Shown here: positions 5,930 through 37,717 of the stretch, in pieces
Layout of the letters: the number at the start of each line of letters is the position of its first letter
Numbering within the stretch: position 1 is the first letter of the stretch
NCBI GenBank assembly: GCA_903873715.1
Contig: CAIQPS010000133.1
Span: 1-39,748 of the forward strand
Length of the DNA stretch: 39,748 nt
Direction: 5' to 3'
Source: an uncultured Actinomycetes bacterium
GTDB lineage: Bacteria; Actinomycetota; Thermoleophilia; RBG-16-64-13
Translations under genes and position numbers: made by a program
Notes under the pieces: generated by a model
Told to the model about the DNA's origin: nothing
Seen by the model: the letters and a program-made list of their open reading frames with translations, nothing else
Databases searched by the model: none

Positions 5930-6406
5930 TTAGAGCCAGTCTTCGGACAGGATCTCGCCCTGGATGCCGACGACGACCACTTTCACGGGGACTCTGCGTT
6001 TGGCGTCGGCGAGGGCCCGCTGGGTGAGCGCGACGAGTCCGCGGCAGCACGGGACCTGCATGATGACCACGGTGAGGGTGTTGATCTGCGCCTCATCGGC
6101 CAGGGCGGCGATCTTCTCCGAGTAGACGTCGAGGCCGTCGTCGAGCTTGGGGCAGGCGATGGCCAACGACTTGCCCTTGAGGTAGTCGGCGTGGAACGAG
6201 CCGAGGGCGAAGGCCGTACAGTCGGCGGCGAGCACCACGTCAGCCCCCTGGTAGTACGGGGCCGTGGGGGAGATGAGATGCATCTGGATGGGCCACTGCT
6301 TGAGTTCTGAGGGCGCCTTGCCTGCGGGAGCGCCGTCCGGCGCTTCCGCCTCGCGGTCGCGAAGGTCCTGCATGTCTGATCCGGGGCATCCACAATGCTG
6401 AGTCAT
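5930..6406 (-). CDS. Cysteine-rich CGCPGS-motif protein (iron-sulfur-protein-like)
   Basis: A 158-residue cytoplasmic protein opening with MTQHCGCPGS (C5, C7), followed by a conserved block with ADC (C63), ACPKLDD (C85) and QVPCCRGL (C120, C121). From recall, this block resembles proteins annotated as 4Fe-4S ferredoxin-like that sit near hybrid-cluster protein, hemerythrin or rubredoxin genes in anaerobes. A canonical CxxCxxCxxxC ferredoxin module is absent here, so this is either a short variant or a stand-alone version of the second domain. The six cysteines could bind a cluster or metal, or act in thiol chemistry; this is inference. Its ATG overlaps the stop of the upstream hemerythrin gene by four bases (ATGA), implying coupled translation and a shared function. 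The frame is open far upstream but only the portion from 6406 looks like a protein. Confidence 0.7.
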   Translation of the reverse strand: MTQHCGCPGSDMQDLRDREAEAPDGAPAGKAPSELKQWPIQMHLISPTAPYYQGADVVLAADCTAFALGSFHADYLKGKSLAIACPKLDDGLDVYSEKIAALADEAQINTLTVVIMQVPCCRGLVALTQRALADAKRRVPVKVVVVGIQGEILSEDWL

Positions 6407-7287
6407 CGGGCAACCTGCACTTTCTCGGTCTGGGTCTGCTTTTCGGTCTGGGATTCCGTCCAACGCTCGATACGCTCGACGAGTGACGTGTAGTTCTTGG
6501 TGAAGCGCGGTCCGGCGGCTTCGTCGACAGCCGCGAACCGGGAGAACAACTCGCCCACCTGGGACGTGGTGAGTTCGCGGTCCATCCAGGGGTACAGCAC
6601 CTCGTCCTCCCGCTTGATGTGCGACGCGAGCAACTCTCCGTAGGCGCCGAGATGGCGGGCCACACTCTCGGCGTCGCGGGCCGCGACGCCCGCTTCCGCT
6701 TCGCGGACGTGGCTGCGGGCTATCTCGTGCTCGGTGACGAACGCCTTGATCGCCGGGGAGTCCGCATCGAAGTAGCCGAAGAGGATGTCCTCCTCCTTGG
6801 CGTGATGGAACCGGTCCGCATACGAGCGGACGAAGTCGATGCCGTCGAGGACGAGTTCGCGGTCCCACGCGCGGTCGAGGTCCATCGCGGCGACTACGGC
6901 CGGGATCTGAGCGACCCAGCGCTTGATGAGCCGGTGTTCCTCGACCAGTTGGGCCATCGGAGGGGAGTACTTGATGGACGGCGCCGCGGCGGTGGCTGCC
7001 GCCGGACGGCCGGCGGCCCCGGAGGCTCCGGCCGGCTGTGCGGCAGTGGCCTTGGGGGTGGGCCCGGCCGGGGTCTTGCCGGCAAGGACAGCCTCGATAC
7101 CCGCCATGACCGCCCGTTCCTCGTCCGCGCTCAGGCCGTGGATTGCCACGATGTCCTTGAGCAGACAGGTGCCCACCTGGCAGGTGACGCAGCCGACGCC
7201 ATGGTCCGCGAGCACGGTCCCGGCTTCCGGGTGATACGCGATCACGTCCTTGATCTCGCTGTTGAGGAGGCCTTCCAACGTCTTCAT
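6403..7287 (-). CDS. DUF1858-like domain fused to hemerythrin domain
   Basis: A 294-residue cytoplasmic protein. Residues 1-70 resemble the DUF1858/hybrid-cluster-associated redox disulfide domain, with C33-V-T-C36 and C41 after a short helical segment. An Ala/Pro/Gly-rich linker covers about 71-108. Residues 110-290 form a four-helix hemerythrin-type domain with the expected histidine/carboxylate ligands: H118 in EEHRLIKRW, H161/H162 and E165/E166 in FHHAKEED, H187 and H193 in EHEIARSH, and H223 with E227/E229 in HIKREDE. Such domains bind a non-heme diiron centre that senses or binds O2 or NO, or help repair Fe-S proteins. Translation probably starts at ATG 7287 after GGGGTGA, with GTG 7296 as the alternative. 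A 14-bp FNR/DNR-like palindrome lies 90 bases upstream. It is first in a two-gene operon. Confidence 0.85.
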   Translation of the reverse strand: MKTLEGLLNSEIKDVIAYHPEAGTVLADHGVGCVTCQVGTCLLKDIVAIHGLSADEERAVMAGIEAVLAGKTPAGPTPKATAAQPAGASGAAGRPAAATAAAPSIKYSPPMAQLVEEHRLIKRWVAQIPAVVAAMDLDRAWDRELVLDGIDFVRSYADRFHHAKEEDILFGYFDADSPAIKAFVTEHEIARSHVREAEAGVAARDAESVARHLGAYGELLASHIKREDEVLYPWMDRELTTSQVGELFSRFAAVDEAAGPRFTKNYTSLVERIERWTESQTEKQTQTEKVQVAR

Positions 7288-7376
7288 GCTGCTCACCCCG
7301 CGCTTCTTCCGCGCTCCGCTGTGGTGGTGTCGATGTCTTGCAGCAGTGATTGTGTACTACGTTAGTAAGGATTTCC

Positions 7377-7390
7377 TTGACTTTGGTCAA
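7377..7390. promoter_or_regulatory. FNR/CRP-family palindrome in the divergent hemerythrin/leuC promoter region
   Basis: TTGAC-TTTG-GTCAA is a perfect 5-4-5 inverted repeat, one base per arm away from the FNR consensus TTGAT-N4-ATCAA and close to sites of NO-responsive DNR/NnrR regulators. On the minus strand a CACAAT -10-like hexamer (7354 to 7349) predicts a start near 7342. That places the palindrome centre 41.5 bases upstream, the position used by class II FNR/CRP activation. On the plus strand it lies just upstream of TAAAAT (7397-7402). The minus-strand sequence also contains TTGACC, so part of the match could simply be a -35 element. Confidence 0.55.
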
Positions 7391-7470: not shown

Positions 7471-8771
<1,301 letters not shown>

Positions 8772-8775
<4 letters not shown>

Positions 8776-13099: not shown

Positions 13100-13546
13100 A
13101 TGGCGAGCGAAGTCGACATCAACAGCCGGCGCGACACCGAGGTCGAGCCTCTGAGCGCGAGCCTCGAGGACTACCTGGAGGCGATCCTGCGGCTCGAGCG
13201 CGAATCCCGTGTGGCGCGCATCAGCGAGATCGCCGGCCACCTCGGTGTGTCACGGCCATCAGTCACGGGCGCCATCAAGAACCTGTGCGGCCGGCATCTC
13301 GTCACGCATGCCCGCTACGGTCACGTCACCCTCACCGAGGAGGGGGTGCGCATCGCCACAGAGGTCGAGCGGCGCCACCTTGCCATCCGCGAGTTCCTCA
13401 CCTGCGTGCTCGGGATACCGGGCGACCGGGCCGAGGCGACCGCCTGCAAGATGGAACACGTCCTCGAACCCGAGGTGCTCGCCTACTTCGTCGCCTACAC
13501 CGAGAAACGGACCGCGGCCCCTGGCGGGCGGGCGGGGATGTCATGA
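13100..13546 (+). CDS. DtxR/MntR-family metal-dependent repressor
   Basis: A 148-residue regulator with an N-terminal winged helix (about 22-85; recognition segment HLGVSRPSVTGAIKNL) and a helical metal-binding/dimerisation domain. There is no C-terminal SH3 domain, as in MntR-size members. Likely ligands: D24 and E27 in EDYLEAI, H93 in ERRHLAIREF, and C116, E119, H120 in CKMEH. The C-x-x-E-H arrangement matches the DtxR/IdeR iron site (C102, E105, H106), whereas manganese-type MntR has Glu in place of the Cys. Coupling to feoAB (four-base ATGA overlap with feoA) supports Fe2+-dependent autorepression of the operon; this is inference. ATG 13100 follows AAGGGG. Confidence 0.88.
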   Translation: MASEVDINSRRDTEVEPLSASLEDYLEAILRLERESRVARISEIAGHLGVSRPSVTGAIKNLCGRHLVTHARYGHVTLTEEGVRIATEVERRHLAIREFLTCVLGIPGDRAEATACKMEHVLEPEVLAYFVAYTEKRTAAPGGRAGMS

Positions 13547-13773
13547 CGCCGCTCACCGACATGCCGAGCGGCGCTCGGGGCCGCGTTGCCTCGTTGCCGG
13601 AACAGCACGGCCTCGCAAAGAGGATGTGCGCTCTGGGGCTCACCCCGGGGTCCGAGGTGTGCGTCCTCCAGAACCGGGCCAAGTGCCCGCTGATCGTGGA
13701 AGTGCACGGCGCCCGTCTGGCTCTCGGCCGCGGGCAGGCGGACCGCGTCACGGTGGAACCGGTGGGCGACTAA
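13543..13773 (+). CDS. feoA: Ferrous iron transport accessory protein FeoA
   Basis: A 76-residue SH3-like cytoplasmic protein. It shows the FeoA pattern: a short N-terminal PSGARGRVASL, the helix KRMCALGLTPGSEVCVL, then strands ending LALGRGQADRVTVEPV. FeoA binds FeoB and is needed for full Fe2+ uptake. Its ATG is within the repressor's stop (ATGA), and feoB follows after nine nucleotides, so the three are one operon. It is too short to stand out by length alone; the in-frame stretch upstream of 13543 is non-coding in this frame. Confidence 0.88.
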   Translation: MTPLTDMPSGARGRVASLPEQHGLAKRMCALGLTPGSEVCVLQNRAKCPLIVEVHGARLALGRGQADRVTVEPVGD

Positions 13774-13782
13774 GAGGCCGCC

Positions 13783-15807
13783 GTGGAACCGGGGGCTCCG
13801 CTCACCCTGGCACTCGCCGGCCAGCCCAACGTCGGCAAGAGCACGGTCTTCAACGCTCTGACCGGCCTGAACCAGCACGTCGGCAACTGGCCGGGCAAGA
13901 CCGTGGAGCAGAAGACCGGCCGCTTCGAACACGACGGCCGGCAGATATATCTGGTGGATCTGCCCGGTACGTACAGCCTCACCTCGGGCTCCGAGGAGGA
14001 GCGGGTCGCCCGCGACTACCTCATCAGCGATCCGCCGGCAGCCGTCCTGGCGGTGGTCAACGCCTCCTCCCTGGAGCGCAACCTCTATCTGGTCGCCGAA
14101 CTGCTCACCCTGCCGGTGCCCGTGGTGGTGGGACTGAACATGCTGGACGTCGCTGAAGCGCACGGGATCACCGTGGAGGCGCCGGTGCTGGCCGCGGCCC
14201 TGGGGGCGCCTGTGGTCGAACTGGTGGCCAGCAAGGGCAAGGGCCTGCGCGAGTTCATCGATGCCGCCGTGCGGCTGCTCGAGCACCCTGAGGAGTTCAA
14301 GCCCGACCGTCCGGCCATCAGGTCCAAGCACCTTCCGGTGCTGCGCCAGATAGAAGCCCTGATCGCGGGGGACACCCCGCCCGGGTACCCGCCTGACTGG
14401 CTCGCGCTCAAACTCCTCGAAGGCGACGGCGACGTGGCCCGCATGGTCCGGGAGCATGCACCGGGCAAATGGGAGGCCGTCAACGCCATCCTCGCCGACC
14501 ACGAGGACGCCTACCTGGACATCGCCGGCGGACGCTACGACTGGGTGGCGCGCATGGTGCGGGCCGCGGTGGCCCATCCGAAGCGTGGGGTCACCGGGGT
14601 CACGGACAAGGTGGACCGGGTGGCGACCCATCCTGTGTGGGGCTTGGTGGTCTTGATCGCGGCCTTCGGGCTGATGTTCTACATCACCTACACGGTGGCA
14701 AACCCGGCGGCGAAGGTCATCAGCAGTCTCGTCACCGGCGATCTGGCCGGCTGGTTGCACCAATTGCTCGCCGGAACTCCCGCGTGGCTTTCCGGCGTCC
14801 TTGTCGACGGGGTAGTGGCCGGGGCGGGGACGGTGCTGTCGTTCATCCCCATCCTGGTGATCTTCTTCGCCGCACTCGGGTTGCTCGAGGACGTGGGGTA
14901 CATGGCCCGCACGGCCTACGTGATGGACCGCTACATGCACTGGATGGGCCTGCACGGCAAATCCTGCATGCCGCTGCTGCTGGGCTTCGGCTGCAACGTC
15001 CCAGGCATCCTGGGCACCAGGATCATCGAGGATCGCAAGGCCCGCATGCTCACCATGATGCTCACCCCGTTCGTGCCCTGCACCGGCCGGCTGGCGGTGC
15101 TGGCCTTCCTGGCCCCGGCCTTCTTCGGCGGGAACGCCGCCTGGGCCATCACGGCGCTTGTCGGGGGGAACCTCGTGCTCCTGGCGATCGTGGGGGTCGC
15201 CGTGAACAAGGCGGTGTTCAAGGGGGAGCGGAGCGCCTTCATCATGGAGATGCCCCTCTACCACGTCCCCAACGCCCGGACGATCGGCCTGTACGTCTGG
15301 CGCAACACTCTGGCGTTCATCCGCAAGGCAGGGACGCTGATAGTGCTGGTGTCGGCGATCGTGTGGGCGCTCTCCACCTATCCCGGAGGGCCCGGCGGCG
15401 ACGCGAGCCACAGCGTGCTCGCCTACGTGGGGCGAGGGCTCGAGCCGTTCTTCGCGCTCATGGGCCTGGGGGACTGGCGGTTCATCGTGGCCCTGCTCTC
15501 CAGCTTCGTGGCCAAGGAGAACAGCGTGGCGACCCTGGGCGTGCTGTTCGGGACGGGCACCGCGGTCGCCGGCGTGGGCGGGGCCGGAGCGTACCTAGCC
15601 GCCAGAGTGGCCGCGGTGCTCACCCCGGCCGCGGCCGCCGCCTTCCTCGTCGTGCAGATGACCTTCGTGCCCTGCGCGGCCACCGTGGCCGCGTTCAAAC
15701 AGGAGTCCCGCTCCTGGCGGTGGACCGGCGCGAACCTGCTGCTCATGCTGGTGCTGGCTTTCCTCCTGGGCATCGTCGTGTTCCAGGTGGGGCGGCTCAT
15801 CACGTAG
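13783..15807 (+). CDS. feoB: Ferrous iron transporter FeoB
   Basis: A 674-residue inner-membrane Fe2+ permease. It has an N-terminal GTPase domain with G1 GQPNVGKST (13-21), the FeoB switch region NWPGKTVEQKTG, G3 DLPGTYSL, G4 NMLD and G5-like ASKGKGLREF. A helical GDI-like spacer follows, then a membrane domain with two gate regions containing the typical FGCNVPGILGTR and PCTGRLAVLAFL motifs and a late PCAATVAAFKQE. The length is at the lower end of FeoB proteins; no separate FeoC or C-terminal winged helix is seen. GTG 13783 follows AGAGG. Uptake of soluble Fe2+ fits a reducing habitat. Confidence 0.96.
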   Translation: MEPGAPLTLALAGQPNVGKSTVFNALTGLNQHVGNWPGKTVEQKTGRFEHDGRQIYLVDLPGTYSLTSGSEEERVARDYLISDPPAAVLAVVNASSLERNLYLVAELLTLPVPVVVGLNMLDVAEAHGITVEAPVLAAALGAPVVELVASKGKGLREFIDAAVRLLEHPEEFKPDRPAIRSKHLPVLRQIEALIAGDTPPGYPPDWLALKLLEGDGDVARMVREHAPGKWEAVNAILADHEDAYLDIAGGRYDWVARMVRAAVAHPKRGVTGVTDKVDRVATHPVWGLVVLIAAFGLMFYITYTVANPAAKVISSLVTGDLAGWLHQLLAGTPAWLSGVLVDGVVAGAGTVLSFIPILVIFFAALGLLEDVGYMARTAYVMDRYMHWMGLHGKSCMPLLLGFGCNVPGILGTRIIEDRKARMLTMMLTPFVPCTGRLAVLAFLAPAFFGGNAAWAITALVGGNLVLLAIVGVAVNKAVFKGERSAFIMEMPLYHVPNARTIGLYVWRNTLAFIRKAGTLIVLVSAIVWALSTYPGGPGGDASHSVLAYVGRGLEPFFALMGLGDWRFIVALLSSFVAKENSVATLGVLFGTGTAVAGVGGAGAYLAARVAAVLTPAAAAAFLVVQMTFVPCAATVAAFKQESRSWRWTGANLLLMLVLAFLLGIVVFQVGRLIT

Positions 15808-32086: not shown

Positions 32087-37717
<5,631 letters not shown>

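Follow-up and report, generated by a model that had tools for sequence, protein, structure and literature searches.

A DUF1858-hemerythrin gene coupled to a short FrdX-C gene downstream of an HcpR-type operator: a candidate module of nitric oxide and nitrite defence

FrdX is a ferredoxin-like partner of the hybrid cluster protein Hcp and belongs to the HcpR regulon (PMC545781, PMC1274295), for which the motif wyTTGACnnnnGTCAArw has been described and both frdX and hemerythrin-like genes have been predicted as targets (PMC1274295). The HcpR proteins that read this motif have Ser or Pro at the position of Arg180 in CRP (PMC1274295, PMC545781). In C. difficile, NO induces frdX and hcp approximately 200-fold via HcpR and knockdown of frdX leads to NO sensitivity; the same study describes what FrdX does as unclear (PMC12915319). 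A second family under NO-linked regulation comprises the RIC proteins (RIC/YtfE/ScdA/DnrN; TIGR03652), of which YtfE binds its di-iron centre through 4 His and 2 Glu (PMC9268430), with an N-terminal di-cysteine that delivers electrons to the di-iron site from a donor that is unknown, ferredoxin being suspected (PMC9052748).

The DUF1858/TIGR03980 domain, named 'hybrid cluster protein-associated redox disulfide domain', completes the set of relatives considered here. Some DUF1858 proteins are selenoprotein variants with CxxU (PMC9312934), and a Bradyrhizobium DUF1858 gene is strongly NnrR-dependent (PMC6710368); by analogy, both observations fit a redox function controlled by NO. A search of mainly openly accessible literature found no paper joining DUF1858-hemerythrin proteins to FrdX, and as far as this literature shows the module described below was previously unremarked. 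The sole paper found to name both DUF1858 and hemerythrin concerns Thermus DrpA/DrpB, which were judged not directly related.

A DUF1858-hemerythrin protein and its overlapping partner gene

The locus lies in a window (the whole stretch of DNA analysed, 39,748 nt) from an uncultured Actinomycetes bacterium and consists of two minus-strand genes. The first (6403..7287; start at 7287 with an alternative GTG start possible at 7296, stop at 6403) encodes P0001, a 294-aa protein for which translation, Pfam and NCBIfam searches and the alignment of 29-32 homologues point to a DUF1858/TIGR03980 redox domain joined to a RIC-like, presumptively di-iron hemerythrin. The second (5930..6406; start at 6406, stop at 5930) encodes P0002, a 158-aa protein assigned as a short FrdX-C protein from its translation, its identity to a paralogue and an alignment (A2). 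The two genes are coupled by an ATGA stop/start overlap at 6403..6406 of the minus strand (TCAT on the plus strand), and a four-base overlap recurs in approximately 14 of 32 such pairs, in different phyla. An earlier note on this DNA had placed the pair at 5930-7287 and had reported the DUF1858-hemerythrin fusion and the ATGA overlap; the sequence and the translations bear out these features, as they do the coordinates and the strand.

P0001 matches the Pfam Hemerythrin model with E=3.8e-14. Its own DUF1858 match falls under the Pfam cut-off (19 vs 32.2 bits) and its TIGR03980 match (E=6e-5) is below the curated cut-off; TIGR03980 is matched by 27 of 29 relatives, and across the relatives the N-terminal 60 residues match both models. 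To this domain the P0001 family adds, besides the fusion to hemerythrin, an invariant third cysteine and a histidine. The C-x-x-C motif that had been noted earlier is indeed present, but the conserved site is longer, C33-x2-C36-x4-C41-x8-H50 (residues 33-50; 7138..7191, minus strand), and is invariant in 32/32 relatives and in 29/29 sequences of alignment A3.

Within the helical bundle, an alignment of 29 sequences, from which two relatives whose matched stretch is interrupted by an in-frame stop had been excluded, showed nine invariant His, Glu and Asp positions (H118, H161, H162, E165, E166, H187, H223, E227 and D228). By alignment only, H118, H162-x3-E166, H187 and H223-x3-E227 were assigned as equivalents of the 4 His + 2 Glu ligands in YtfE. 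Also invariant is Arg191, at +4 after H187, which we take to be the position where O2-carrying hemerythrins have their fifth His ligand. P0001 shares the Pfam Hemerythrin fold and the HxxxE motifs with canonical hemerythrins and bacteriohemerythrins, but the fifth His is absent, so that the five-His ligand set of canonical O2-carrying hemerythrin is not found in P0001.

Judged from its sequence, the hemerythrin of P0001 looks RIC/YtfE-like. The TIGR03652 (RIC) score of P0001 itself is far under the curated cut-off (12.4 bits, E=0.1; cut-off 204.7 bits), and the same model is matched by 27 of its 29 relatives (best E=6e-9); YtfE structures were the first matches of the P0001-family profile (E=2e-4). 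The AlphaFold2 model of P0001 is a helical bundle with a mean pLDDT of 89, for which Foldseek returned nothing at E<=0.001, the top match being PF0695 (3cax; E=0.23). With the RIC proteins P0001 shares a small N-terminal cysteine domain, the four-helix bundle, the 4 His + 2 Glu residues and, probably, NO-linked regulation; it differs from them in that ScdA_N (DfCCgG) is replaced by DUF1858 and in having an obligate-looking partner gene.

The FrdX-C domain, alone and fused to ferredoxin

P0002 alone had no match in Pfam, NCBIfam, PHROGs or the PDB, nor was a match obtained when Pfam and the PDB were searched through its relatives and profile. A paralogue is encoded in the same genome (contig C74): it is 229 aa long, carries two [4Fe-4S] motifs and is 54% identical to P0002 at its C-terminus. 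Across the long FrdX-like proteins, identity of their C-terminal domain to P0002 ranges from 54 to 66%, and P0002 keeps all of their invariant residues; 16 of 18 family genomes carry the FrdX-C domain, mostly in the long form. Since this domain forms the C-terminus of two-cluster ferredoxin proteins, some of which are encoded beside hcp, the setting of FrdX, P0002 is read as the C-terminal domain of an FrdX-like protein without its ferredoxin half. From hcp linkage and domain content, the long forms were tentatively equated with published FrdX. P0002 shares with FrdX this domain and an HcpR-type box upstream, but it lacks, like the other paired short forms, the N-terminal two-cluster ferredoxin of the 58 long forms, and its gene lies behind a DUF1858-hemerythrin gene instead of adjacent to hcp. 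The earlier assignment of P0002 to a reduced CGCPGS family has to be replaced accordingly: GCPGS is a linker motif of the long protein, and CPG[SA] occurs in the linker of 41 of the 58 long forms.

The six cysteines reported earlier in P0002, and the absence of a ferredoxin motif, were both recovered; CxxCxxCxxxC is missing from P0002, and [4Fe-4S] ferredoxins are found instead in the long form or as separate genes in some relatives. C5, however, is present in only 11% of the relatives, so the conserved set comprises five cysteines (C7, C63, C85, C120 and C121). C7 is invariant among the short forms, and short and long forms alike keep C63, C85, C120, C121, H72, D62, K87, D89 and K98 without exception. 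The stretch from C63 to C121 (6044..6220, minus strand) holds C63, H72, C85, C120 and C121, each at 100% in an alignment of 86 short and long sequences. Full conservation of its residues and of its partner rules out that the short form is a mere degraded remnant.

The AlphaFold2 model of P0002 has a mean pLDDT of 81 and is poor over the first 40 residues. It shows an alpha/beta domain in which three predicted strands end just before C63, C85 and C120-C121, so that these cysteines may meet in space. Foldseek gave weak matches to beta-carbonic anhydrases (1ylk, E=0.067, probability 0.77), and comparison of the P0002 family profile with three enzymes of the beta-carbonic anhydrase family was negative and lent such a fold no support. 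Neither comparison pointed to what FrdX-C may bind. A vicinal cysteine pair, C120-C121, together with three more invariant cysteines could also be that of a thiol or NO carrier, or of a denitrosylase, which would hand NO between proteins and the di-iron site, and both Hcp and YtfE have been discussed in S-nitrosation (PMC9052748). We nevertheless regard this as highly improbable, as searches of Pfam, the PDB and Foldseek found no sequence or fold relative with such activity and the ferredoxin fusion of the long forms points to electrons.

The association of the two families was assessed on 80 loci found by scanning a single genome for each species, together with the family loci and the window. 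Directly behind a DUF1858-hemerythrin homologue stood 32 of 40 short forms, compared to 0 of 58 long forms (Fisher p=1e-18); co-occurrence, which the earlier note had put forward as a test, is clearly present, and we are nearly certain that the gene pair and its co-occurrence are real. Among the eight short forms without the partner, one (L043) has it cut by a contig edge, four (L047, L072, L094 and L099) appear to be broken or masked long forms, and one (L062) lacks it, possibly through an assembly join. The remaining two, L033 (4938-5477) and L074 (4884-5468), are real exceptions in which a short FrdX-C lies near a hemerythrin of the DUF438 type instead of the DUF1858 type, an arrangement that suggests partner exchange. 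Divergence within the P0001 and P0002 families is correlated (Spearman 0.57, reached in 0 of 2000 permutations), a figure to which shared ancestry of the hosts contributes.

Hosts of the pair include Nitrospirae, Deltaproteobacteria, Omnitrophota, Planctomycetota with Brocadiaceae, Elusimicrobia, Chloroflexi and a Thermoplasmatota archaeon. Among 396 sampled genomes of the window's own phylum, a full-length match to the pair was found in the window's genome only, the other matches being hemerythrin-only proteins with no partner nearby; given this rarity, the spread of the pair is patchy. The short forms do not clearly make up a single clade, with approximately seven label changes on the tree, of which the strongly supported branches force at least two. 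FrdX-C constitutes a protein family without a curated model that extends across many anaerobic phyla, including the anammox Brocadiaceae, to whose metabolism NO is central.

Among the neighbouring genes, those for NO reductase stand next to 4 of 30 pairs in named genomes and 0 of 43 long forms. A quinol-type NorB is encoded in L034, L049 (both by the Pfam NorB domain) and L082 (by similarity), and L052 has a NorC-NorB-like pair. Conversely, hcp lies beside 10 of 43 named-genome long forms compared to 1 of 30 pairs, in agreement with a hybrid cluster protein family search. A separate FrdX-N ferredoxin gene is present in four pair clusters (L033:6381-6737, L037:8333-8680, L045:6320-6682 and L104:7339-7632), and in L034 an FrdX-like gene with the ferredoxin half lies just upstream, which suggests that the ferredoxin half is able to act in trans. 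Rrf2 and CRP/FNR regulator genes occur near some short and some long forms.

Three further genes were observed around the pairs. An FmdE-like gene lies near the pair in seven loci (e.g. L037:5534-6169), and a gene for an HD-domain protein with N-terminal CPGS and zinc-ribbon-like cysteines in L037 (8670-9395) and six other loci. In nine Planctomycetota loci, from Brocadiaceae and their relatives (e.g. L044:5656-6240), an uncharacterised gene recurs past the pair on the opposite strand.

Operator, candidate promoter and regulator

Upstream of the pair, at 7377..7390, lies a perfect HcpR/FNR-type operator, TTGACTTTGGTCAA (minus-strand reading TTGACCAAAGTCAA), and the sequence at 7377-7390, ccTTGACTTTGGTCAAaa, agrees with the published HcpR motif. 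Perfect TTGACnnnnGTCAA sites occur twice in the 3.33 Mb genome, the one in the window included. As approximately 0.85 would be expected from base composition, it is not their count but their positions that are remarkable. The second site (G000:C65:12046-12059, equal to L025:5047-5060) precedes an operon encoding serine acetyltransferase, DUF438-hemerythrin and PAS proteins, where DUF438 was named by sequence resemblance; on its other flank lies a molybdopterin oxidoreductase/NrfD-type gene cluster. Among the 32 pairs, five have a perfect TTGAYn4RTCAA upstream, compared to 0.035 expected.

On its other side the box is flanked by the divergent leuC (7471-8775), and in principle the two genes could be chance neighbours and the operator could serve leuC. 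We consider this hardly credible: in family genome G012 the same box stands before the pair with leuC elsewhere, and the pairing itself is kept across phyla.

A candidate -10 hexamer, CACAAT (7349..7354, minus strand), lies 22 nt beyond the box at the spacing of a class II activator, and would place the transcript start near 7342. A -10-like hexamer was found 21-22 nt downstream of all seven boxes considered, namely those of four other pairs, the window, the genome's own hcp and the C65 operon, and in 0 of 20,000 shuffles. This offset was noticed before it was tested; the remaining offsets tabulated with it scored far lower. A simple scan for sigma-70 promoters found none, which would fit an activator-dependent promoter. 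On its sequence, the layout of box and hexamer is that of a class II activated promoter.

The only CRP/FNR regulator above the Pfam cut-off in the genome is encoded at L127 379-1161 (minus strand), divergent from hcp (1303 onwards, plus strand), with a box, TTGACTTAAATCAA, between the two; this hcp is on a different contig from the pair. The recognition helix of the regulator, read by eye, is VPETLSR, with proline where CRP has Arg180, one of the two residues noted there in HcpR proteins that read this motif. An orthologue of the regulator accompanies the box before the pair in G012. Taken together, these features make it likely that HcpR controls the pair. Against this reading, a perfect box is missing upstream of most of the 32 pairs and the degenerate motif is not enriched genome-wide (4 vs 3 in the control). 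In addition, family genome G001 has kept the pair without a box and without an HcpR orthologue, and regulation of the module accordingly varies.

The earlier note had proposed a small O2/NO-response system. What stood of this is a conserved two-gene module with NO as the likely signal, owing to the HcpR-type box, the linked hcpR and hcp in the genome and the NO reductase genes beside relatives of the pair. Of the two signals put forward, O2 has the weaker case because of the RIC-like site, with 4 His + 2 Glu and the invariant Arg191 in place of the fifth His. An O2-response pair would comprise a hemerythrin that binds or senses O2 in an anaerobe, an FNR-like O2 regulator that reads the operator, and a cysteine protein as thiol partner. 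Hemerythrins are the classical O2 binders and TTGAC/T-N4-A/GTCAA is an FNR-type site as well, but inspection of the sole strong CRP/FNR regulator, which adjoins hcp, revealed no cysteine cluster at the N-terminus such as FNR has, and it is NO reductase genes that adjoin the relatives. We regard the O2-response alternative as quite improbable.

A proposed role in NO and nitrite defence

The reading we favour, and hold to be reasonably probable, is that of an HcpR-controlled NO and nitrite-defence module in which FrdX-C feeds a RIC-like di-iron enzyme. Its parts differ in strength. That the pair serves in NO or nitrite defence appears likely, and the chances that FrdX-C is the redox partner of the di-iron protein seem about even. 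Against the reading as a whole stand the weak RIC score of P0001 itself and the small share of loci, 4 of 30, with an adjoining NO reductase gene. In the proposed sequence of events, NO, or NO derived from nitrite, would activate HcpR, which would then bind TTGAC-N4-GTCAA and turn on both genes. The di-iron protein P0001 would reduce nitrite or handle NO. Electrons would pass from a ferredoxin, either the FrdX-like protein of the same genome or, in some relatives, the product of the separate FrdX-N gene, to FrdX-C, which would keep the DUF1858 cysteines, and via them the di-iron site, reduced.

A different division of labour would be Fe-S cluster repair or supply, in which the RIC-like protein donates iron and FrdX-C, with its four cysteines, is a carrier of metal or clusters instead of electrons. 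RIC proteins are able to donate iron to apo-ferredoxin and IscU (PMC9268430), the four invariant cysteines stand at the ends of predicted strands within a single domain, and the pair probably belongs to an NO-defence regulon, where clusters get damaged. On the other hand, the long forms have FrdX-C fused to a two-cluster ferredoxin, in keeping with electron transfer, redox chemistry is what the DUF1858 C-x2-C site and the related CxxU proteins point to (PMC9312934), and a later paper states that YtfE donates iron only when its centre is damaged (PMC9052748). Repair is, on balance, unlikely.

Returning to electron transfer by FrdX-C, a more speculative extension, to which we give somewhat less than an even chance, is that FrdX-C represents a redox or metal domain not described before and acts as an exchangeable adaptor, which fused to ferredoxin would serve Hcp and alone would serve the DUF1858-RIC di-iron enzyme. 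If this is true, FrdX-C would provide the route, long sought, by which RIC-type proteins obtain their electrons. The probable presence of the pair in the regulon of hcp makes the reductant of RIC and the role of FrdX one testable question.

Elsewhere in the window, a DtxR/MntR-like regulator gene is followed by FeoA- and FeoB-like genes (13100-15807), and a long minus-strand frame (32087-35521) has the look of a receiver-type plus PEP/pyruvate-binding protein, both as read from sequence.
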